This document shows, in pieces, positions 2,500 to 37,083 of a DNA stretch of 37,506 nt; the stretch's first letter is position 1; each line of letters opens with the position of its first letter. This stretch comes from a virus. The notes beneath the pieces are model-generated. The model was not told the DNA's origin, did not search any database, and saw nothing but the letters and a program-made list of their open reading frames with translations. The translations under genes and the position numbers were made by a program. The stretch lies in IMG/VR virus record IMGVR_UViG_3300032093_000379, positions 1 through 37,506 of that record; one strand, written 5' to 3'.

Positions 2500-2759
2500 T
2501 GGATAAAGTGAAACGGTACAACCTTGACGCTGAAGAAGATGCGTTCGGATGGCACGCAAGAGCTGAAGAAGACGCCAATGGAATATGGGTTGAAGCTGAG
2601 GACCACGACCGCGTCGTAGCCGAGATGCAAAAGCGGATCGAGAAACTGGAAGCGGCGCTTAAAAACTTGAGCGAGCGACACAACTGGCAGCCAGACATGG
2701 GCGAATGTATTTGTGCTGAACACAAGGCAGCACGCGAGGCGCTCAAGGGGGATGGATGA
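2496..2759 (+). CDS. Modular early protein, 87 aa
   Basis: The start is ATG at 2496, or the adjacent ATG at 2499, behind GGGGG and overlapping the previous stop. The product has an acidic N-terminus, then a cassette VAEMQKRIEKLEAALKNL, a segment with two cysteines (GECICAEH), and the ending AREALKGDG. Most of the cassette recurs, split, in the next gene. This is the typical layout of modular early phage proteins with leucine-rich coiled coils. No function is recognised. Confidence 0.65.
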   Translation: MMDKVKRYNLDAEEDAFGWHARAEEDANGIWVEAEDHDRVVAEMQKRIEKLEAALKNLSERHNWQPDMGECICAEHKAAREALKGDG

Positions 2760-3142
2760 GCGACAGAACCAAAGTTTGGATTTCATTCGGCGAGCACGGC
2801 GATGTGACGAACGAACAGGATTGGGAAGTTGATGAACCCGCATTGTCGAAGAAGTTCGACGATGACAACTTCTACACGTACTACGCATTTCGAGAAATGG
2901 AGAACGGCGAGGCTTATGTTCATTCGTCGGTTGTAGCCGAGATGCAGAAGCGGATTGATGAGCTAAGCCCAGTTCACACTTGCCACGACAAGTGCAGATA
3001 TAAAGGCTGTGTGCAGAGGCGCAGGATAGAGAAATTGGAAGCGGCGCTGAGGGACATCGCTGACTATGGTGCCACCTTAGATGCAGTTGTTGCCTTTTCT
3101 ATGAAACAAATTGCACGCGACGCGCTCAAGGGGGATGAATGA
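2756..3142 (+). CDS. Modular early protein with Cys-rich insert, 128 aa
   Basis: The ATG at 2756 overlaps the upstream stop and follows a GGGGGATG ribosome site. The protein contains VVAEMQKRIDEL, then a Cys/His insert (HTCHDKCRYKGCVQRRR) that may coordinate a metal, then RIEKLEAALRDIA and the ending ARDALKGDE. Compared with the upstream gene, the insert splits the same cassette in two. This again indicates block shuffling among neighbouring genes. Function unknown. Confidence 0.65.
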   Translation: MSDRTKVWISFGEHGDVTNEQDWEVDEPALSKKFDDDNFYTYYAFREMENGEAYVHSSVVAEMQKRIDELSPVHTCHDKCRYKGCVQRRRIEKLEAALRDIADYGATLDAVVAFSMKQIARDALKGDE

Positions 3143-3218
3143 AGTGACTGCGCGAGTGGTGGCCGCAACGGGGGCCATAATCTAAGGAACCAAAAGTAGA
3201 GCCGCTCGCGTGGTCACT
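3143..3218 (+). ncRNA. 76-nt structured non-coding element (candidate RNA)
   Basis: This gap between genes folds into a long closed structure. AGTGAC (3143-3148) pairs with GTCACT (3213-3218). After a TG/TG internal loop, nine bases CGCGAGTGG (3151-3159) pair with CCGCTCGCG (3202-3210) with one G-U pair. Inside is a small hairpin TGGCC/GGCCA (3160-3177) and a 24-base single-stranded stretch. No U-run follows, so it is not an intrinsic terminator. The length is tRNA-like, but no T-loop or anticodon arm is present on either strand. It lies just before the ribosome site of the next gene, so a leader or processing role is possible. Confidence 0.4.
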
Positions 3219-3234
3219 TGATTTAGGGGGATGA

Positions 3235-3909
3235 ATGAAGTTCGATGATCTTGGCGTATTAGTTCGAGAGGCACCACGTCCAGAGGGTGACTGGTGGTCT
3301 AATTTGGGCGATGCTTGTGCCGATACCTGCCGCGCCTTAATCCTTGGTAAGCGAGCGACCAGCGTTGAGCCTGTCATTCGATTTACAGATGATTGGAAGG
3401 GTTTTTTAAGACATCCAAGGCTTAAAGCTAAAAAGGGCTGGGATCGCAAATCGTTTACCAACGACCAGCTTGTGCCGCTGATTATGGCTCAATATATCGA
3501 CCATCCGATTTGGGTGAGGCCAGATTTATTCGTTAGCTGTGGGTTTATTCGTGGCACCTGGAAGCTTGCGCAGCCGATGGTTTATGCCCTGCTTTTTAAG
3601 CAATGGTGGCTAGTTGATAAGCTTAATCATTTACAGGGCTGGCTTCTAACGATGCCATTCCGTTGGTCTGATCGGCCTCAAGATTTTGGCTTCGAATCGA
3701 TTCAAGGGCAGGTTCAGGACTACCCGACAATGATTTGCACGACCGTTTTTCTTAACCGCATGGGATATAAGGCTGTAATTCCAAGGCCGCATGGTGAGTG
3801 CTTAACCGCCATTCTTAAATACCGCCAAGATCCTGCCGACTTCGAACCTAATTCGGAGTGGGAAATCGATCTTTACCGCGAAGCCTTGCATAAATATGCG
3901 GCTCAATAA
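3235..3909 (+). CDS. Hypothetical protein, 224 aa
   Basis: The start is ATG at 3235, five bases after TAGGGGG; the ATG at 3231 is in a frame that closes after a few codons. The product is soluble and aromatic-rich with many tryptophans (GDWWSN, KQWWLVDKLNHLQGWLL). It has regular spacing of short hydrophobic segments but no transmembrane helix or signal peptide. I do not recognise the family. Its position between the early modular cluster and the replication genes suggests an early, non-structural role, which is inference only. Confidence 0.75.
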   Translation: MKFDDLGVLVREAPRPEGDWWSNLGDACADTCRALILGKRATSVEPVIRFTDDWKGFLRHPRLKAKKGWDRKSFTNDQLVPLIMAQYIDHPIWVRPDLFVSCGFIRGTWKLAQPMVYALLFKQWWLVDKLNHLQGWLLTMPFRWSDRPQDFGFESIQGQVQDYPTMICTTVFLNRMGYKAVIPRPHGECLTAILKYRQDPADFEPNSEWEIDLYREALHKYAAQ

Positions 3910-4061
3910 AGACAAAAGCCCCGAGGTGGTGCTACCCCGAGGCCGTTGCCTTTTAAGAATTTAAGGTCTAAGTCTTGAGGTGCGAGCATCAAGAAAGACC
4001 TTAACTTCACAGCTAAAGGTCTCTCTTAAGATGCCGCAAACGTCAAGAGAAAGAGACCAGA
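3910..4061 (+). promoter_or_regulatory. Leader with two strong hairpins before the initiator gene
   Basis: This 152-base gap is densely structured. A weak terminator-like hairpin AGGC/GCCT (3940-3951) runs into TTTT. It is followed by a strong stem: TTAAGGTCT (3961-3969) pairs with AGACCTTAA (3996-4004), with an inner TCTTGA/TCAAGA stem and a 10-base loop. A second hairpin pairs GGTCTCT (4018-4024) with AGAGACC (4052-4058) and ends three bases before the initiator ATG, so it would cover the ribosome site. GAGGTGCGAG, the Shine-Dalgarno leader of two genes near 34 kb, recurs at 3977-3986, in the end of the inner stem and the loop. This probably regulates initiator expression, at the RNA level or as binding sites; the mechanism is unknown. 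Confidence 0.5.
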
Positions 4062-4895
4062 ATGCACGGTTATCCGAGAGTTATTTCGACTAGACTTCTG
4101 CTAGATCCAAAGTTCCAACGGCTATCAACTTCAGCCAAGCTTTTCTACTCATTCGCAGGGGCGTTTGCTGACTTTGATGGTTACGTTCATGAGCCACTTT
4201 CAGTGCTCGCCTTCTCCATCTTTCCACGTTCTAGACAGACTGCCTCACTCGCTTCAAGAGCCCTAAAAGAGTGCGAGCGAGAGGGCCTAGTGGTGGTGTC
4301 AAATGACTCGTTTTACATGCCGCGTCTGAGGCAAGAATCACGTCTAGAGTATCGCCGAAAGACCGATTTCAAGATCAGTCAACACATGAGCAATGAACGA
4401 CCAAATGTAGTCCAAATGCAGTCCAAAGACAGTCCAAATGCAGTCCAAGTGCAGTTCAAAGACATTCCAAGTGCAACTGACCATGAGTTAAATCAAATAC
4501 TTAGCAAAACTTTTTCCCAAAAAATACCCCCTAAAGATAAAGAAAAAGAGGAAGAGGTAGAGAGAGGGGAAGTGGTCGCTGCGCTCCCCCCGCCTAAAAC
4601 TTCAATTTCAACCAAAGGTAAAGAACTAGCCTTACAGAGTTACGAGCAATTCGAGAGCAGGGCAAAAAGGGAAAGTAGCGAAGGTAAGGGGAAACTCATC
4701 TCGCTACTTTTTGAGTTATCGAAAGACTACGGTTACGCGAGGTTTGAGAAAGAGGCAGATAGGCTTTCAACGAAGATCCTGGAAGTCTTTGGCGATGGTG
4801 AGAGTTTCGGCACGTGGCTCGACATGAGAACCGCAAGGCCGATCACGGGAGCCGAGCTGCATCGAGCGCTTTGGATGGAAATTAAAGGCAAGTAA
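4062..4895 (+). CDS. Candidate replication initiator (phage replisome-organiser type)
   Basis: The 277-residue product has a compact N-terminal domain (residues 1-95) beginning PRVISTRLLLDPKFQRLS. Its pattern fits the winged-helix DNA-binding domain of phage replication initiators such as lambda O and DnaD-like organisers. A low-complexity linker (residues 110-190) follows, including an 11-residue repeat (QMQSKDSPN, QVQFKDIPS) and a KDKEKEEEVERGEV stretch. The C-terminal helical domain (residues 195-277) would be the helicase-loading part. The gene is followed by a DnaB-like helicase, as in lambda-type replication modules. The DNA of the linker holds six iterons, which supports an initiator role. 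The ribosome site is weak and lies inside a hairpin. Confidence 0.65.
   Translation: MHGYPRVISTRLLLDPKFQRLSTSAKLFYSFAGAFADFDGYVHEPLSVLAFSIFPRSRQTASLASRALKECEREGLVVVSNDSFYMPRLRQESRLEYRRKTDFKISQHMSNERPNVVQMQSKDSPNAVQVQFKDIPSATDHELNQILSKTFSQKIPPKDKEKEEEVERGEVVAALPPPKTSISTKGKELALQSYEQFESRAKRESSEGKGKLISLLFELSKDYGYARFEKEADRLSTKILEVFGDGESFGTWLDMRTARPITGAELHRALWMEIKGK
4398..4560 (+). other. Candidate replication origin: six 11-nt iterons plus AT-rich stretch
   Basis: Within the initiator gene, an 11-base unit of the form AGTCCAAATGC is repeated six times in direct tandem at 4409, 4420, 4431, 4442, 4453 and 4464. Variation is mainly at three positions, and a degenerate seventh copy lies at 4398-4408. 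The unit is not a multiple of three, so the reading frame shifts in each copy, which argues for selection on the DNA itself. Directly downstream (about 4488-4560) lies an A-rich segment with few G and C that could serve as the unwinding element. Iterons followed by an AT-rich region inside the initiator gene is the arrangement of the lambda origin in gene O. Confidence 0.7.
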
Positions 4896-5135
4896 GTCAC
4901 TGGCATGGTCTTAAAACGCTTTAAAACGGCCAAGGTTGATTTCTGTGAAACAAAACCGACTGCGACATGAGTCGAGGTTAAAAATCAATGGCGGGCCTTT
5001 TAAACGCAAATCGCACACCTGCTTAAAAACCGGTCAAGAAACCTTGATATTTTTTAGTAACGCCATGCAAAAACGTTAGGACCATGTAAAAAAGCAAGTT
5101 AGCAAATATTCAACACCACGAGACCAGGGGTTAGC
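4896..5135 (+). promoter_or_regulatory. Structured intergenic region between initiator and helicase
   Basis: This gap holds no gene. A long imperfect inverted repeat spans 4920-5004. TTTAAAA, GGCC and TTGATTT on the left arm (4920-4942) pair with AAATCAA, GGCC and TTTTAAA on the right arm (4982-5004). The 39-base loop itself contains a CGACT/AGTCG hairpin. A second stem, GCAAGTTAGC (5094-5103) with GTTAGCTTGC (5130-5139), is complete if two G-U pairs are allowed. It covers the TTG start of the helicase and the last base of its AGGGG ribosome site. I saw no convincing promoter. The region may be a secondary origin element, a transcript-processing site or a translational control element. Confidence 0.45.
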
Positions 5136-6431
5136 TTGCAACTTGATTTACTTATGGGCGGTATCGCTCGAAACTTAATCGCTGACGCTCGATTCATGGC
5201 GTCTTGTGAATTAGCCCGAATTGATTTCACTGATTGGCCGCAGTCACCGCAAAGGCAATGCGTTGAGCTTTACCTAAAAGCGCGTCGTGAGCACTCGCAT
5301 GATTATGCAGCTTTGAAGACCTTTGAAATGGGTGAGCGATTTCCAGACGTGGCTATTCCAGACGATCCAGACCTTTTGTCTGCCATGTATTTCAAGGCCA
5401 TTAGAACCTTTAGAGGTTTAGACCTTGCTCAAAAAATACGCATGAATCCAGAAAACGCCGATAAGATCATTTCAGATTTCAAAGGTATCAAGACGCATGA
5501 GCCTTTGGCGCATTTTGGTTTAAAGTTTAAAGACTACATCGCAAACGTCGTTCGCAGGGCGCAAGACAATAAGACCAGGATCGCAATACCAGACTGGCCA
5601 GAGCTGTCAGACATGATCGGGGGCTTTAATCCTGGACGTGTCGGTATGCTCGTTGCCAAAACCGGCTTTGGTAAAACCACCTGCTCAATAAATCTAGCCT
5701 TAAGTGCCTCGAAGATTATGCCCACGGTCTACCTCAATATGGAAATGAGCGAGCAAGACTTTGCTGAGCGTTTGATTTGTGCCGAGGGTAATCTTAATTA
5801 CAAAGAATTTACCCGCAACGTCTTTCATTACGAAAAAAAGCTTGAAGACATTATGGAGCGCGTTTACACGAGGCCGTTTTTCTTTAGCCACGGCGTACCG
5901 TTTACAGTCCAGGACATTTATGCCACCGCAAACGAGTACAAGCTACGCTATGGCCTTGGCTTACTTATCGTCGATTATGATCAAAAGATTGCGCTCAAGA
6001 CTTCCAAAGATACGCCGGAATGGAAAGCACTCCAAATAGCGTTAGAAGGTTTAGATGAACTATCCAGGCGGCTTGATTGTTTTATCCTGGTGCTCGCTCA
6101 GGAGTCAGCCAGTGGAGACGTTTCAGGATCACAACGATCTAAGTTTCCGACTTCAAGCGTGCTTAGATTTTACGAATCAGAGAAAAACCTCGCAGGGCAA
6201 TCGAAGTATGTTATTGAAGCTCTTAAAAATCGTTTCGGGCCATACGGTGCTATGGTCGAGGTAGAATATGACGCAGCGGCGTGCAGAGTCAGGGAAATTG
6301 GACAAACGCAGTCTAAACCCTCTTACAAAGACAGGCTCAAAGAAGACAGTAGTCCAAGAGATACACGACGAGCAGGTGCAGGACATCAAAGACAAATCTC
6401 GCCGCCTCGAAGGTACTCGCCAGGCGATTGA
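5136..6431 (+). CDS. DnaB-like replicative helicase
   Basis: The 431-residue product carries a RecA-type ATPase core. The Walker A motif is AKTGFGKTT at residues 174-182, with Ala where the first Gly is usual. The segment VYLNMEMSEQDFAERLICAE is typical of DnaB helicase motif 1a. Walker B is LLIVDYDQ with Asp280, and ILVLAQES fits the following motif. These are the hallmarks of the hexameric 5'-3' replicative helicase. The N-terminal 150 residues are short and divergent. The start is TTG at 5136, because AGGGG lies six bases upstream, whereas the ATG at 5154 has no ribosome site. The last 40 residues are low-complexity and overlap the next gene. Confidence 0.85.
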   Translation: MQLDLLMGGIARNLIADARFMASCELARIDFTDWPQSPQRQCVELYLKARREHSHDYAALKTFEMGERFPDVAIPDDPDLLSAMYFKAIRTFRGLDLAQKIRMNPENADKIISDFKGIKTHEPLAHFGLKFKDYIANVVRRAQDNKTRIAIPDWPELSDMIGGFNPGRVGMLVAKTGFGKTTCSINLALSASKIMPTVYLNMEMSEQDFAERLICAEGNLNYKEFTRNVFHYEKKLEDIMERVYTRPFFFSHGVPFTVQDIYATANEYKLRYGLGLLIVDYDQKIALKTSKDTPEWKALQIALEGLDELSRRLDCFILVLAQESASGDVSGSQRSKFPTSSVLRFYESEKNLAGQSKYVIEALKNRFGPYGAMVEVEYDAAACRVREIGQTQSKPSYKDRLKEDSSPRDTRRAGAGHQRQISPPRRYSPGD

Positions 6432-10215: not shown

Positions 10216-12071
10216 AAAAAGAATATTACAATCAAGCAAAAGAAAAAACCGATTACCGTAACGACTGGTGGTCTATCGATGAGAAAGAGCTTTACATGCA
10301 TCTCTTTCCATTGGTGCGCTACCTTCGCCAAAAGCAGGGCTATCGCCGGACGGCTAACATTCGGCACGCTAGGCTTTACAGCAATATGGACGCTCTCGGG
10401 GCTTTTTCTAGCACTTACGGCAAGGTAAATTCGGACGGTGTGGGCACTCACAAGCTATCGTTAAACGTCGTGGCCGCGGTCGTTGATACTTTGTCCAGTA
10501 AGATCGCTAAAGCAAAGCCTCGCACGGTTTATCTAACAGACATGGGTGATTGGAAGCGCCAGCAGCGAGCAAAGAAGCTTCAAAAGTTTATGGAAGGTTG
10601 GCGGCAAGGGGCTTTAGAGTACGAAAAGAAGCAACAAGCTTTTGTTGATTCTGGGATCTTTGGCACTGGCCTCGTTAAGTTTTACGCTGATCCAATTAAG
10701 GGTGAGATTTGTTGTGAGCGCGTCTTGGTTGATGAAATCGACGTTGACGATGCTGAAGCCATTTATGGCCAGCCGGCATCACTCTATCAGGCAAGATTTG
10801 TGGCAAGAGATAAGCTTTTAGCGTCTTATCCAAAGATGCATGATGCGATTCTTCAGGCCACCGCTGGTGAGGCGCAAGAGCTTGCTCGTAGTCAGTCGAG
10901 TGATCTTGTAATGGTAATCGAGGCATGGCATTTACCGAGCGATAAGAACACTCCAAATGGTCGCCATGTTATCGTTTGCGACACCTGCACGCTTTACGAC
11001 GAAACTTGGGAATTTGAGTGGTTTCCGTTTTCTAAGCTCATGTATAAACCAAGGATCACAGGATGGTTTGGCATGGGGGCAGCCGAGTGCTTACTTCCAA
11101 TCCAGATCGAGATTAATAAAACGATTCGGTCGATTGAAGCGGCTCATCGGCTAATGGCTACACCAAGAATTTACGTTGAAAACAGCTCTGGAATTAATCA
11201 AGGTACGCTAACAAACGACATTGGCTCAATTATCAAGTTTAGCGGTAACCCGCCAATTGAGAGCCAAGGTGTGGCGATGCCGTCGCAGATTTACGCTTAT
11301 TTAGAAAACCTTTGGCAGAAAGCTTTTGCGCAAGAGGGTGTCTCGATGCTCTCGGCAAGCAGCCAAAAGCCAGCAGGACTTAACTCTGGCGCAGCTTTAA
11401 GGGAATATCAGGACGTTGAGAGCGAGCGTTTTCAGCTCATGGGCCAGCGTTATGAGATGAGTTTTCTCGAATCAGATCGCATCGTGATTGGTCTTACTAA
11501 AAAGCTAAATAAACAAATCCCTGGTGGTGTAAAAGTTAAGCTTGGTGGTTACGGCGGGGCTGAAACCATTAAATGGTCTGAAGTTGAAATGGATGAAGAC
11601 AAATATATCATCCAGCAATTCCCGGCTTCGATCTTACCAACGACACCGGCTGGCCGATTACAGACCGTTACAGAGCTTTCGCAGTCTGGTTTTATCGATA
11701 AGGAAACAGCACTTAATTTGCTGGATTTCCCAGATTTGAAAGCTACGACGAGTCTTTTAACTGCAAACCAGCAGCTTGTGAAAAAGATCATTGATTCGAT
11801 GATTGAGACCGAAAAATATGTGCCGCCAGAGCCTTATTTCGGACTTCAGTTTGCGAAGGATTATGCGCAGCTTAGTTATTTAAAAAGCAAAATGGACGGC
11901 GTCCCAGACGAAAAGCTGGAGTTGCTTAGGACCTTTATGTCTGATTGTCAGACGCTTTTAGATAAAGCAGCACAAGCCATGCAGCCACCACCAGGCCAAG
12001 CGCCACAGATGCAGGGTGAGGCCATTGCTAATCCACAAGCTCCACCAACAAGCGATTTGTTACCGGTGTAA
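10203..12071 (+). CDS. Portal protein
   Basis: The 622-residue product follows the terminase and precedes scaffold and capsid, the standard place for the portal. Its length fits podovirus portals. Typical features are an N-terminal DWWSIDEKELYMHLFPLVRY segment, AAVVDTLSSKIAKAKPRT, a middle clip/wing region with GIFGTGLVKFYADP, and a Pro/Gln-rich C-terminal tail (residues 600-622) after the crown region. The dodecameric portal is the DNA channel and the docking site for the terminase and tail. The ATG at 10203 follows GGGAGC. The C-terminal part contains no extra domain. Confidence 0.85.
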   Translation: MAEIKKEYYNQAKEKTDYRNDWWSIDEKELYMHLFPLVRYLRQKQGYRRTANIRHARLYSNMDALGAFSSTYGKVNSDGVGTHKLSLNVVAAVVDTLSSKIAKAKPRTVYLTDMGDWKRQQRAKKLQKFMEGWRQGALEYEKKQQAFVDSGIFGTGLVKFYADPIKGEICCERVLVDEIDVDDAEAIYGQPASLYQARFVARDKLLASYPKMHDAILQATAGEAQELARSQSSDLVMVIEAWHLPSDKNTPNGRHVIVCDTCTLYDETWEFEWFPFSKLMYKPRITGWFGMGAAECLLPIQIEINKTIRSIEAAHRLMATPRIYVENSSGINQGTLTNDIGSIIKFSGNPPIESQGVAMPSQIYAYLENLWQKAFAQEGVSMLSASSQKPAGLNSGAALREYQDVESERFQLMGQRYEMSFLESDRIVIGLTKKLNKQIPGGVKVKLGGYGGAETIKWSEVEMDEDKYIIQQFPASILPTTPAGRLQTVTELSQSGFIDKETALNLLDFPDLKATTSLLTANQQLVKKIIDSMIETEKYVPPEPYFGLQFAKDYAQLSYLKSKMDGVPDEKLELLRTFMSDCQTLLDKAAQAMQPPPGQAPQMQGEAIANPQAPPTSDLLPV

Positions 12072-12072
12072 T

Positions 12073-13260
12073 ATGCGATTAATCGGAGGGGATTCGTTGC
12101 ATATTCTGAGAGAGTTGGAAGATTGCTCGATTGATTCAGTCGTGACCGACCCGCCGTATGGCTTGGCGTTCATGGGTAAGAAATGGGACTACGACGTTCC
12201 TTCCGTTGAACTATGGCTCGAAGTATTTCGCGTTCTGAAACCGGGCGGCCACGTTCTTAGTTTCGGCGGCACGAGGACCTATCACCGCATGGTTGTGAAT
12301 ATTGAAGACGCTGGCTTTGAAATTAGAGACCAATTGCAATGGCTATATGGCTCAGGTTTTCCAAAGTCGCACGACGCTTCAAAGGGTATGGACAAAGCGG
12401 CGGGTGCTGAGCGTGAAGTTATCGGTCCAAAGTCTACTTATCGCGAACCGCAAACGCCGAACGGTTGGGATTGCACTAAACGCGCAGAGTTTGAAACCGC
12501 ACCCTCAACCACCCTCGCTAAACAATGGCAAGGCTGGGGCACAGCACTTAAGCCAGCAAACGAGCCAATCGTATTGGCCCGGAAGCCGCTTGTTGGAACT
12601 GTTGCGGCCAACATTGCCCAGTACGGCACTGGTGCCCTCAATATTGATGCGAGTCGGATTGCTCCATCGGACCCTGAACAATACAAGGCAAACGCTACTC
12701 GTTCCGATGGCAAGATTCGCGAGGGCTTTCTTGCTTCAGGCATGAACGCTACTGCATCTGAAATAGGCCGCTGGCCTGCCAACGTGCTTTTCGATGAAGA
12801 AGCTGCGGCGGTGCTCGATGCGCAAAGTGGGTTGATAAGAACTCGAAATGGCTACGGAATCAAAGGGCAAACTGGAGGCGGCACGGGCGCAGCTTATGTA
12901 ATGCGAAAAACTGAGGCCCACGTTTCTCAAAAAGTAATAAGGGAAAACGAAAACGGAGTATTGGGCGGCGCCTCACGTTTCTTCTACGTCGCAAAAGCAA
13001 GTAAGAAAGAACGCGGTGAAGGAAACAACCATCCAACCGTCAAGCCGATCAAACTCATGGAGTATCTGGTCAGGCTCATCACCCCGCCAGGCGGCACAGT
13101 GCTCGACCCATTCATGGGCTCAGGGACGACTGGTGTCGCGTGTAAGAATCTAGGATTTCAATTTGTGGGAATTGAGCGCGAGCAGGCTTATCTAGAAATA
13201 GCAGAGAAACGAATCGAATCACAAAAATTAAAAAACCAATTAGAAATGGGGAATTTATGA
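12073..13260 (+). CDS. DNA methyltransferase, N6-adenine/N4-cytosine type
   Basis: The 395-residue product has the catalytic DPPY motif at residues 26-29 (TDPPYG) and the S-adenosylmethionine motif FMGSGTTG at residues 347-354 near the C-terminus. The catalytic motif preceding the cofactor motif, with the recognition region between, is the beta-class order. HPTVKPIKLMEYLVRLIT just before the cofactor motif is typical. DPPY enzymes methylate adenine N6 or cytosine N4. No cognate nuclease is nearby, so it is probably a solitary phage methylase that protects against restriction. Its place between portal and scaffold is unusual. The ATG at 12073 starts MRLIGGDSL, the normal family beginning. Confidence 0.9.
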   Translation: MRLIGGDSLHILRELEDCSIDSVVTDPPYGLAFMGKKWDYDVPSVELWLEVFRVLKPGGHVLSFGGTRTYHRMVVNIEDAGFEIRDQLQWLYGSGFPKSHDASKGMDKAAGAEREVIGPKSTYREPQTPNGWDCTKRAEFETAPSTTLAKQWQGWGTALKPANEPIVLARKPLVGTVAANIAQYGTGALNIDASRIAPSDPEQYKANATRSDGKIREGFLASGMNATASEIGRWPANVLFDEEAAAVLDAQSGLIRTRNGYGIKGQTGGGTGAAYVMRKTEAHVSQKVIRENENGVLGGASRFFYVAKASKKERGEGNNHPTVKPIKLMEYLVRLITPPGGTVLDPFMGSGTTGVACKNLGFQFVGIEREQAYLEIAEKRIESQKLKNQLEMGNL

Positions 13261-34878: not shown

Positions 34879-35214
34879 ATGAGAACACAAAAGCAAACGA
34901 TCACGATAGTAATTCCAGGGACTACAGACGAGCTGGCAGAGCTTACGGTTTACGTTAAAAATAACGACATCGTTGATGTAAAACCCTATATTTTTGATTT
35001 CAACCAAGCGGCTCAAGACAATCCCGACCATGTTCATTTGGTTAGCGACGTTGCTGGTTTTATTGCTGGTCAACCAATGGCCTCTTGGCTTCATGATCAG
35101 GTTTACTTTGAGCTTCAGCGTTGGGGCATGACAGATACTGACGATAACGAGCCTGACGGGCTTCTTTTGGCAAAACAACAAATCGAATGGGAGCTTTCAA
35201 ATGGCACTCGATAA
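34879..35214 (+). CDS. Hypothetical protein, 111 aa
   Basis: The ATG at 34879 lies directly behind the GAGGTGCGAG leader of element 2. The product starts MRTQKQTITIVIPGTTDELA, with a beta-like first half and a helical end (SWLHDQVYFELQRWGM, LLLAKQQIEWELSNGTR). No motif is recognised. It overlaps the exonuclease start by 14 bases and so is probably the first gene of the recombination operon. Confidence 0.65.
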   Translation: MRTQKQTITIVIPGTTDELAELTVYVKNNDIVDVKPYIFDFNQAAQDNPDHVHLVSDVAGFIAGQPMASWLHDQVYFELQRWGMTDTDDNEPDGLLLAKQQIEWELSNGTR

Positions 35215-36022
35215 CGCTTTAAGGCTTGATGAAAAGACCTACAATGCGATCTATGCGGTTAGGTCTTCTAATTTAAAACACGCTCTCAAGAGTGCTGCGC
35301 ACTACAAGCAAGCCCTTGAGACACCTTTTGAGCCGTCGCCAGCAATGGTTTTAGGTACGGCCATTCATACAATGATTTTAGAGCCTACAACTTTTGATAT
35401 CCGCTTTAGGGTTTTTGAGGGTGATCGCCGCACAAAAGACGGCAAGGCAGAATATCAAGCAATTGTTGATCAAGGGTTAACACCGATTGGCCGTGATGCT
35501 TTTGAGACGGCTAGAAACTGTTTTCAGTCCGTTACCAAACATCCAGAGGCTTCGAAATACGTTGTAGCTGGCAAAGAAGAGCACGCTTTTGTCTGGACCG
35601 ATGTCGATACAGGGGTTTTATGTAAGTGTAAGCCTGACTTCCTACATAACGGGCAATTCGTGGTTGACGTTAAATCGACTCGCGATGCTTCGCTAAAAGG
35701 CTTTCAGAGCGCCATTGGCTCTTATCTGTATCACGTCCAGGCTGCGTTTTACCTTGATGGCGTGGCGCAAGTAACTGGCCTACCTTATCGTGACTTTGTG
35801 TTTCTTTGCGTTGAGACAGAAGCTCCCTATGGCGTAGCGACTTACGCTCTTGATGAATCATCAATTGAGATGGGCAGAGCACTTTACAAGATCGCTCTCA
35901 AGAATATCCGCGACGCGCAAATCGATAACGAGTGGCCGGCTTATCCAAAAAATCTTCAGACCATTAGCCTACCGACTTGGGCACATTTTAATGCGCAAGA
36001 AATTATCCAAAAAGAGTCGTGA
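35201..36022 (+). CDS. RecE-like PD-(D/E)xK exonuclease
   Basis: The 273-residue product carries a PDDEXK nuclease core: KCKPDFL with Asp146, then FVVDVKSTRDA with Asp156 and Lys158, then the helix YLYHVQAAFYLDG with the conserved Gln. An N-terminal segment (AMVLGTAIHTMILEPTTFD) with conserved His60 is also typical. The RecE/YqaJ-type family digests one strand from double-strand ends to leave 3' overhangs. The annealing protein Bet is encoded two genes downstream, which makes a complete Red-type recombination pair. Confidence 0.85.
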   Translation: MALDNALRLDEKTYNAIYAVRSSNLKHALKSAAHYKQALETPFEPSPAMVLGTAIHTMILEPTTFDIRFRVFEGDRRTKDGKAEYQAIVDQGLTPIGRDAFETARNCFQSVTKHPEASKYVVAGKEEHAFVWTDVDTGVLCKCKPDFLHNGQFVVDVKSTRDASLKGFQSAIGSYLYHVQAAFYLDGVAQVTGLPYRDFVFLCVETEAPYGVATYALDESSIEMGRALYKIALKNIRDAQIDNEWPAYPKNLQTISLPTWAHFNAQEIIQKES

Positions 36023-36389
36023 AGACTTAACTAGAATTGCCAACACGCTAGCGCAGCTTGCAGAAGCTGTGCTTTTACTTGTTGAGCGCGAAATGCATGA
36101 GGTAACCGACAAGGATCTGGAAACACCACCTAGAAAGATTGCAAAGGCAATGCAATCAGGGCGACGTGTAACGCCAGATGAGGTAACACGTTATGCATTG
36201 TCGCTACAGCAATCCGTTTATAATCCAAAAATCAAAGTGCGCGCACAGCCACGGCACATTACAGAAATCAAAGGGGATCTAGTCGATGTCGAAAGAACTA
36301 AAGCCAATTCAAGAGGACGCGATGGTGCCGAGCTGGACGCCGGACCAAATGGACCTAGTAAAAAGATCGATAGCGAAGGGTGCGACTGA
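35991..36389 (+). CDS. Hypothetical basic protein between exonuclease and Bet, 132 aa
   Basis: The ATG at 35991 (MRKKLSKKSREDLTRIANTL) overlaps the exonuclease end by 32 bases; the upstream frame is open but has no plausible start. The product is a helical N-terminal half (AQLAEAVLLLVEREMHEVTD) followed by a basic segment. Its last 35 residues overlap the Bet gene by 104 bases and look poorly constrained, so the real end may matter little for function. It may be an accessory factor of the recombination pair; no family is recognised. Confidence 0.55.
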   Translation: MRKKLSKKSREDLTRIANTLAQLAEAVLLLVEREMHEVTDKDLETPPRKIAKAMQSGRRVTPDEVTRYALSLQQSVYNPKIKVRAQPRHITEIKGDLVDVERTKANSRGRDGAELDAGPNGPSKKIDSEGCD

Positions 36390-37083
36390 GGACGAGTTTA
36401 AGCTTTTTGCTTATCGCTGTAAAGACATGGGGCTAGATCCATTTAAGAAAGAAATCTATTTCGTAAAGTACGGCGGTACACCAGGGACTATCATCGTTGG
36501 CATTGATGGTTTTAGAAAGATCGCTCATCGGTCTGGCCGTTTATCAGGTATTGAGCGCGGCGTGATTCGTAATGAAGAGGGAATCTGCGTAGCCGCATGG
36601 GCAAAGGTTTATCGATCAGACTGGACACATCCAGCTTATGAGACCGTAAGCCGTCACGAGTACGACACGGGTAAAAACAACTGGTCAAAGATGCCTGAAA
36701 CCATGCTTAAGAAAGTCGCCGAAGCGTCAGCCCTTCGCATGGCATTCCCTAACGAGCTTGGCGAGATTTACGAGCAGTCAGAAATGGACCAAGCGCAAGA
36801 CGCTGCCGAGCTACATAGGCTTGACTCTATTGAGCGTAAAGCGAGAGCTGCGGCTGTAGAGATTGATCAGTTAAACATTGATGCTGAGGCACCGGCTGGT
36901 GAGCGCCTATGGCTTGTCGGTAAGACGTTTTACGGGAAAAAGATTAAAGACATTCCCGGCGATAAACTTCAAGAGATGCTTAAGCACTTAAAAGGTTTAG
37001 AGAAGCTTACACCTGAGATGGTGGCCGCTATTAGTGACGTTGAGGAATATTTCGAGCAGAGAAAGTCTGAGGCTTTAACATGA
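36286..37083 (+). CDS. bet: Bet-family single-strand annealing recombinase
   Basis: The 265-residue product (lambda Bet is 261) has the family core: TEDEFKLFAYRCKDMGLDPF, KKEIYFVKYGGTPGTIIVGI, DGFRKIAHRSGRLSG and, later, MPETMLKKVAEASALRMAFP followed by GEIYEQSE. It binds single strands made by the exonuclease and anneals them to homologous DNA. A charged C-terminal third follows (KLTPEMVAAISDVEEYFEQR). AAGGGG precedes ATG 36286 by nine bases. The stop overlaps the micropeptide start. Confidence 0.9.
   Translation: MSKELKPIQEDAMVPSWTPDQMDLVKRSIAKGATEDEFKLFAYRCKDMGLDPFKKEIYFVKYGGTPGTIIVGIDGFRKIAHRSGRLSGIERGVIRNEEGICVAAWAKVYRSDWTHPAYETVSRHEYDTGKNNWSKMPETMLKKVAEASALRMAFPNELGEIYEQSEMDQAQDAAELHRLDSIERKARAAAVEIDQLNIDAEAPAGERLWLVGKTFYGKKIKDIPGDKLQEMLKHLKGLEKLTPEMVAAISDVEEYFEQRKSEALT

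Follow-up and report, generated by a model that had tools for sequence, protein, structure and literature searches.

The origin of phage lambda lies within gene O. It contains a 40-bp A+T-rich unwinding region and four imperfect inverted repeats of 18-19 bp, to which O binds as a dimer (PMC5043065; PMC7466680). Plasmid iterons are directly repeated and helically phased (PMC5043065); once the repeats have melted, Rep proteins bind to one of their strands (PMC4980987). For mycobacteriophages carrying RepA, an origin within repA has been suggested, and no repeats were found in the region examined there (PMC7157519). In Francisella phage KIRK, a putative origin was placed in fhv_0043, where four repeats occupy an AT-rich part of this replication gene, and was likened by the authors to that of lambda (PMC7924643). 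Here, we analyze the viral record IMGVR_UViG_3300032093_000379 (IMG/VR, positions 1 to 37,506, hereafter the window) and an array of 11-nt repeats located inside its gene 4062-4895. These repeats very probably correspond to the initiator-binding iterons of a phage replication origin embedded in the gene of the initiator itself; we infer both their binding by the protein and their activity as an origin.

The putative iteron array and its surroundings

The array occupies positions 4398-4474 of the plus strand. Read from the sequence, it begins with a degenerate copy, CGACCAAATGT (4398-4408), followed by six 11-mers of the AGTCCAAATGC type arranged head-to-tail (4409-4474): AGTCCAAATGC at 4409, AGTCCAAAGAC at 4420, AGTCCAAATGC again at 4431, AGTCCAAGTGC at 4442, AGTTCAAAGAC at 4453 and ATTCCAAGTGC at 4464-4474. 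An earlier note, made by a model from the letters of the window, had described these copies and their limits correctly to the base. At 4401-4475, Tandem Repeats Finder (TRF) detects an 11-mer repeated 6.8 times (score 87) and, at a longer period, a 33-mer repeated 2.3 times (score 115). This is the highest TRF score of the whole window, where the runner-up array scores 44. The 11-mers are direct repeats without dyad and carry short A-tracts approximately one helical turn apart. No inverted repeats were found in 4396-4480 and strand folding at the array is not unusual (z 0.26), so a hairpin or RNA element at the DNA level was rejected.

Just 3' of the array lies a candidate DNA unwinding element (4488-4547). 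With a nearest-neighbor energy z of 3.4, this 60-bp duplex is among the least stable of the window, exceeded in instability by only 0.03% of positions. It overlaps a plus-strand purine tract (4533-4572) composed of repeats of about 6 nt (AAAGAT AAAGAA AAAGAG GAAGAG GTAGAG; 6-nt period score 21/25). With 38 purines out of 40, the tract is the most purine-rich 40-mer of the window and represents a candidate single-strand binding or helicase-loading element. The A-rich tract that the earlier note had placed after the array is real, and the order expected of an origin, iterons followed by a 3' duplex-stability minimum, is observed. The top tandem array, a near-minimum of duplex stability and the maximum purine content of the window are all found within approximately 175 bp.

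This locus resembles the lambda origin in its position in the middle of an initiator gene (4398-4474 in 4062-4895), in the succession of iterons and an easily melted, A+T-rich stretch (4488-4547), in the O-like N-terminal domain of the initiator (see below) and in the replication functions encoded downstream. However, lambda carries four 18-19-bp inverted repeats whereas the window carries seven 11-nt direct repeats, the degenerate copy included. Lambda O shows no 11-nt period in the test used below (14/33 at period 11). Moreover, unlike lambda, the window phage encodes its own DnaB-like helicase. Because the iterons are direct 11-mers without dyad, the candidate origin of the window is lambda-like in position and layout but not of lambda type. 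The earlier note had rightly drawn this contrast, and the direct, tandem and shorter nature of the repeats makes them plasmid-like rather than lambda-like. As in the iteron plasmids RK2, P1, pSC101 and R6K, helically phased direct repeats, here with a strictly tandem 11-nt spacing, adjoin an unwinding element with its own short repeats (PMC5043065, PMC4980987). However, the plasmid repeats lie beside the initiator gene and not inside it, and the repeats of the unwinding stretch are 13 nt long in plasmids but 6 nt in the window. No Pfam or NCBIfam match of the window protein to the plasmid Rep families (RepA/TrfA/Pi) was obtained. The best reading is an origin at the lambda position whose direct iterons are in phase with the helix, as in plasmids, and are followed by an unwinding element on the 3' side.

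Other phage initiators are also comparable. The RepA-like initiators of mycobacteriophages and actinophages (phrog_2149, phrog_5810) share their N-terminal domain family with the window protein, to which they are only distantly related in sequence. In several of them, the middle of the gene carries 11-nt arrays as well as GGAACAG repeats of 7-8 nt. The KIRK protein belongs to another family (Phg_2220_C) and was compared with the window by the layout of its in-gene repeats. The rep gene of TP901-1 showed no 11-nt array in the periodicity test.

It is unlikely that the repeats instead form an operator by which the initiator, or another regulator, controls its own transcription or copy number, with the origin located elsewhere, for example in the 152-nt or 240-nt gaps flanking the gene. 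Iteron-binding initiators often autoregulate, and inverted repeats or AT-rich stretches occur in both gaps. However, the array lies 340 nt within the gene, a search of 3850-5200 gave no promoter-like site, and the weakest duplex adjoins the array and not the gaps, both of which are clearly more stable than 4488-4547. As a separate observation, the gap preceding the gene (3910-4061) contains a direct repeat (CCCCGAGG), a minus-strand terminator-like hairpin and AAGGTCT/AGACCTT inverted repeats, possibly corresponding to an operator or attenuator.

Identity of the encoded protein

The product of gene 4062-4895 (plus strand, 277 amino acids) is related to O-like or replisome-organizer type initiators. 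The relationship is not apparent from direct searches: no PHROG or NCBIfam family was matched by the product, and phage protein searches with the whole protein or its N-terminal domain gave no match. The N-terminal domain also had no match among 198 Bacteroidota genomes, a negative that carries no information because the host of the phage need not belong to this set. A match below cut-off to the plant Pfam family DUF863, covering the linker, was judged spurious. However, an alignment-based scan retrieved one relative, L232, whose identity to the N-terminal domain is 31% over 84 residues. Three families were matched by L232: phrog_345 ('replication initiation O-like', 7e-17), phrog_5810 (1e-17) and a DnaD-like loader family. 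When a profile was built from the N-termini of 14 phage RepA/O-like proteins, the window protein ranked first of the 203 open reading frames (ORFs) of the window (hmmsearch, E 6e-4), and comparison with the RepA/O-like domain profile by hhalign gave a P value of 9e-6 and a probability of 83%. The O-like N-terminal domain is recognized through L232, with a direct profile match that is weak but significant. Unlike the RepA/O-like profile, those of Lin1244_N and DUF1376, two families considered below, did not match the window protein.

Residues 1-111 (4062-4394, plus strand) are predicted to form a winged-helix DNA-binding domain. The AlphaFold2 model, obtained from a two-sequence alignment with L232, shows helices followed by a two-strand wing (predicted local distance difference test, pLDDT, 80; predicted template modeling score, pTM, 0.70). 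The named viral matches of this model in BFVD are mostly replisome organizers or replication initiators. A fold search of the PDB returned only generic winged-helix regulators (E > 0.02). The full-length model predicted from the single sequence was unusable (pLDDT 42).

A DnaB-like replicative helicase is encoded downstream on the same strand (5136-6431; DnaB_C PF03796, 2e-20; phrog_19, 1e-36). The earlier note had located it two features downstream, which was loose: the helicase ORF comes next among those listed on this strand, 240 nt further on. The two-step homology through L232, the profile comparison, the predicted fold and the neighboring helicase support the identification of the product as a replication initiator, as that note had proposed.

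Recurrence in other putative phage initiator genes

A search starting from the DNA was performed on viral contigs with a pattern of two or more 11-nt units. In eleven loci, the pattern lies in the middle of a gene, just after the N-terminal domain of proteins carrying Lin1244_N (PF14297) or DUF1376 (PF07120). The remaining matches fall outside such genes or in unclear ORFs. The exact pattern CAGTCCAAATGCAGTCCAAA was found neither in the viral contigs nor in the window. Bacterial genomes gave five occurrences of the unit pattern, by inspection mostly outside evident initiator ORFs, indicating that the 11-nt unit is not exclusive to initiators. One of the Lin1244_N proteins (L007, 1054-1830) has, besides its linker array, an extra iteron-like stretch encoded by the N-terminal domain itself (LAMQMQCK). 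Another observation concerns a 55-kb contig of Paenibacillus xylanexedens (L008, together with L018:1500-2020), where a long 11-nt array of the CAAATGAGGTA type, with a dozen or so copies visible, lies outside any evident initiator gene and could be an origin or a partition site of this element.

The bias of choosing genes by their repeats was removed in a survey of 160 loci retrieved solely by the N-terminal protein sequence (Lin1244_N or DUF1376) and grouped into 69 clusters at 70% identity, with 467 other ORFs of the same loci as controls. A period-11 score of at least 20/33 was reached by 35 of the 69 clusters and by 2 of the 467 control ORFs (Fisher p 3e-33), and a score of at least 24/33 by 17 clusters and no control. 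The window initiator gene scores 28 on the same scale. Period 11 stands out among periods 8-24, and the arrays are mostly located mid-gene. About half of the clusters lack a clear 11-nt array; the layout is therefore common but not universal. The units vary (TTCAACGACCG, GCAAATGCAAT, GCTCAAGCAAT and others) but are more alike than shuffled units (mean best match 5.99, null maximum 5.56), and comparison of the window unit with this set gave p 0.012. Short tandem repeats of 4-8 nt are present in 21/69 clusters and 4/467 controls, and are situated 3' of the 11-nt array in all 14 other genes that have both separately. Of 34 array-bearing genes, 26 have a duplex-stability minimum immediately 3' of the array (22% expected, p 4e-11) and 5 have one on the 5' side. 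The window conforms to this layout, with a mid-gene array followed by a 3' stability minimum and short repeats.

Arrays of 11 nt also occur in RepA-like initiators of cultured phages (e.g. Gordonia phage Attis, Vibrio phage 1.131 and Bordetella phage IFTN9) and in a different initiator-like gene of Pseudoalteromonas phage HS2. Other cultured-phage initiators have 7-8-nt or 21-nt repeats instead. Five actinophage and Marinomonas initiators carry mid-gene 7-8-nt repeats, GGAACAG(G), and three further initiators carry CTGATTCCCTTAAC repeats of approximately 21 nt in their place. Both appear to be the same kind of second element built from other units.

These data bear on a very unlikely alternative, that the array is a mere low-complexity protein linker whose repeats arose by selection on, or neutral drift of, a disordered inter-domain peptide. 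The array does lie in the inter-domain linker, linkers tolerate duplications, and the 33-nt period, equivalent to 11 residues, slightly outscores the 11-nt period in TRF. However, codons do not explain the 11-nt period: the best stretch of the gene shows 44/55 identities at period 11, against a maximum of 31 among 20,000 codon-shuffled versions of it, none of which equaled the observed score. The 33-nt period suggests a higher-order duplication that kept the reading frame, since the copying of three 11-mers as one block is the smallest step that does so. The two 33-nt halves differ at four positions, read from the sequence, and all four differences change the amino acid, so that nothing suggests the peptide to be what is conserved. 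Furthermore, the same DNA unit is found in other initiator families, where the reading frame enters the array in different phases (DANAMQMQC, SKCNANAMQMQ and EQMQSKCNANAM), 11-nt arrays are almost absent from the control ORFs, and the stability minimum lies on one side of the array only. The out-of-frame length of the unit, its recurrence in several phases and the enrichment of arrays in initiator genes indicate that the repeat is selected as DNA, which the earlier note had considered more likely than selection on the protein. Finally, a partition (parS-like) site, or another protein-binding site unrelated to initiation, is hardly credible: the parS sites of extrachromosomal mycobacteriophages are indeed 8-bp direct repeats (PMC7157519), but no ParA or ParB match was found among the window proteins scanned (part of the ORFs), and the position in the initiator gene with a linked unwinding-like element fits an origin better.

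Several observations nevertheless weigh against an iteron origin in the window. L232, the one independent relative found for this exact initiator subfamily, has a pair of repeats of approximately 21 nt in place of the 11-nt array. The earlier note had regarded relatives that keep the initiator and lose the 11-nt period as a refutation. This applies in part, since L232 lacks the array but retains the purine tract at the same place together with the repeat pair, which fits a possible drift between one-turn and two-turn repeat spacing. No good DnaA box, as present at the origins of iteron plasmids, lies near the array; the single match there (4511-4519) has one mismatch, and the degenerate pattern used occurs in the window less often than by chance. 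The cumulative GC-skew minimum that had been proposed at the array was not seen, nor was any clear global minimum; only local dips occur, around 3.75-4.25 kb and 5-5.5 kb. Lastly, Pfam annotates neither Lin1244_N nor DUF1376 proteins as initiators, which we infer them to be in phages.

We give about even chances to a broader proposal. Several families of winged-helix initiators (Lin1244_N, DUF1376, RepA/O-like) would share, in their linker, a widespread and apparently undescribed class of phage origin with helically phased 11-bp direct iterons and a one-sided unwinding element of 5-7-nt repeats (AAAGT, CAGATA, GAAGAG and the like). These short repeats would form a ladder for single-strand binding or helicase loading, analogous to the DnaA-trio or plasmid 13-mers. 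In the open literature searched, no paper describing iteron arrays of 11 bp in genes for DUF1376 or Lin1244_N proteins was found; subscription papers were outside this search and novelty is not certain.

Proposed mechanism and wider context

By analogy with lambda and the iteron plasmids (PMC5043065, PMC7466680, PMC4980987), the winged-helix domain (residues 1-111) most likely occupies adjacent 11-bp direct repeats along a single face of the DNA helix, probably with one initiator monomer per repeat as in those plasmids. The array DNA should also be bent because A-tracts recur approximately once per helical turn. The assembled complex would strain the weak duplex just 3' (4488-4547) and cause it to melt. 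Using its C-terminal half, the initiator would then keep the purine-rich strand and the 6-nt repeats on it (4533-4572) in single-stranded form, or pass this strand to the DnaB-like helicase (5136-6431).

Elsewhere in the window, several imperfect direct repeats of 17-30 nt (2613-3241) join the ends and starts of the small ORFs 2496-2759, 2756-3142 and 3235-3909, a pattern resembling the duplication of a small gene or of the region around its start. An N6/N4 DNA methyltransferase (12016-13260) lies between portal-like and head genes. The right end (35201-37083) encodes Exonuclease VIII-like and RecT-like single-stranded DNA annealing proteins, a RecE/RecT-type recombination pair.

For most phages known from sequence alone, the replication origin has yet to be mapped. 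The site described here links two textbook schemes, placing direct iterons of plasmid type at the lambda position, and its layout suggests a testable second element, the short repeats on one strand. If this layout holds, inspection of the initiator gene could be enough to locate the start of replication in many phages, among them large families now labeled only as domains of unknown function.
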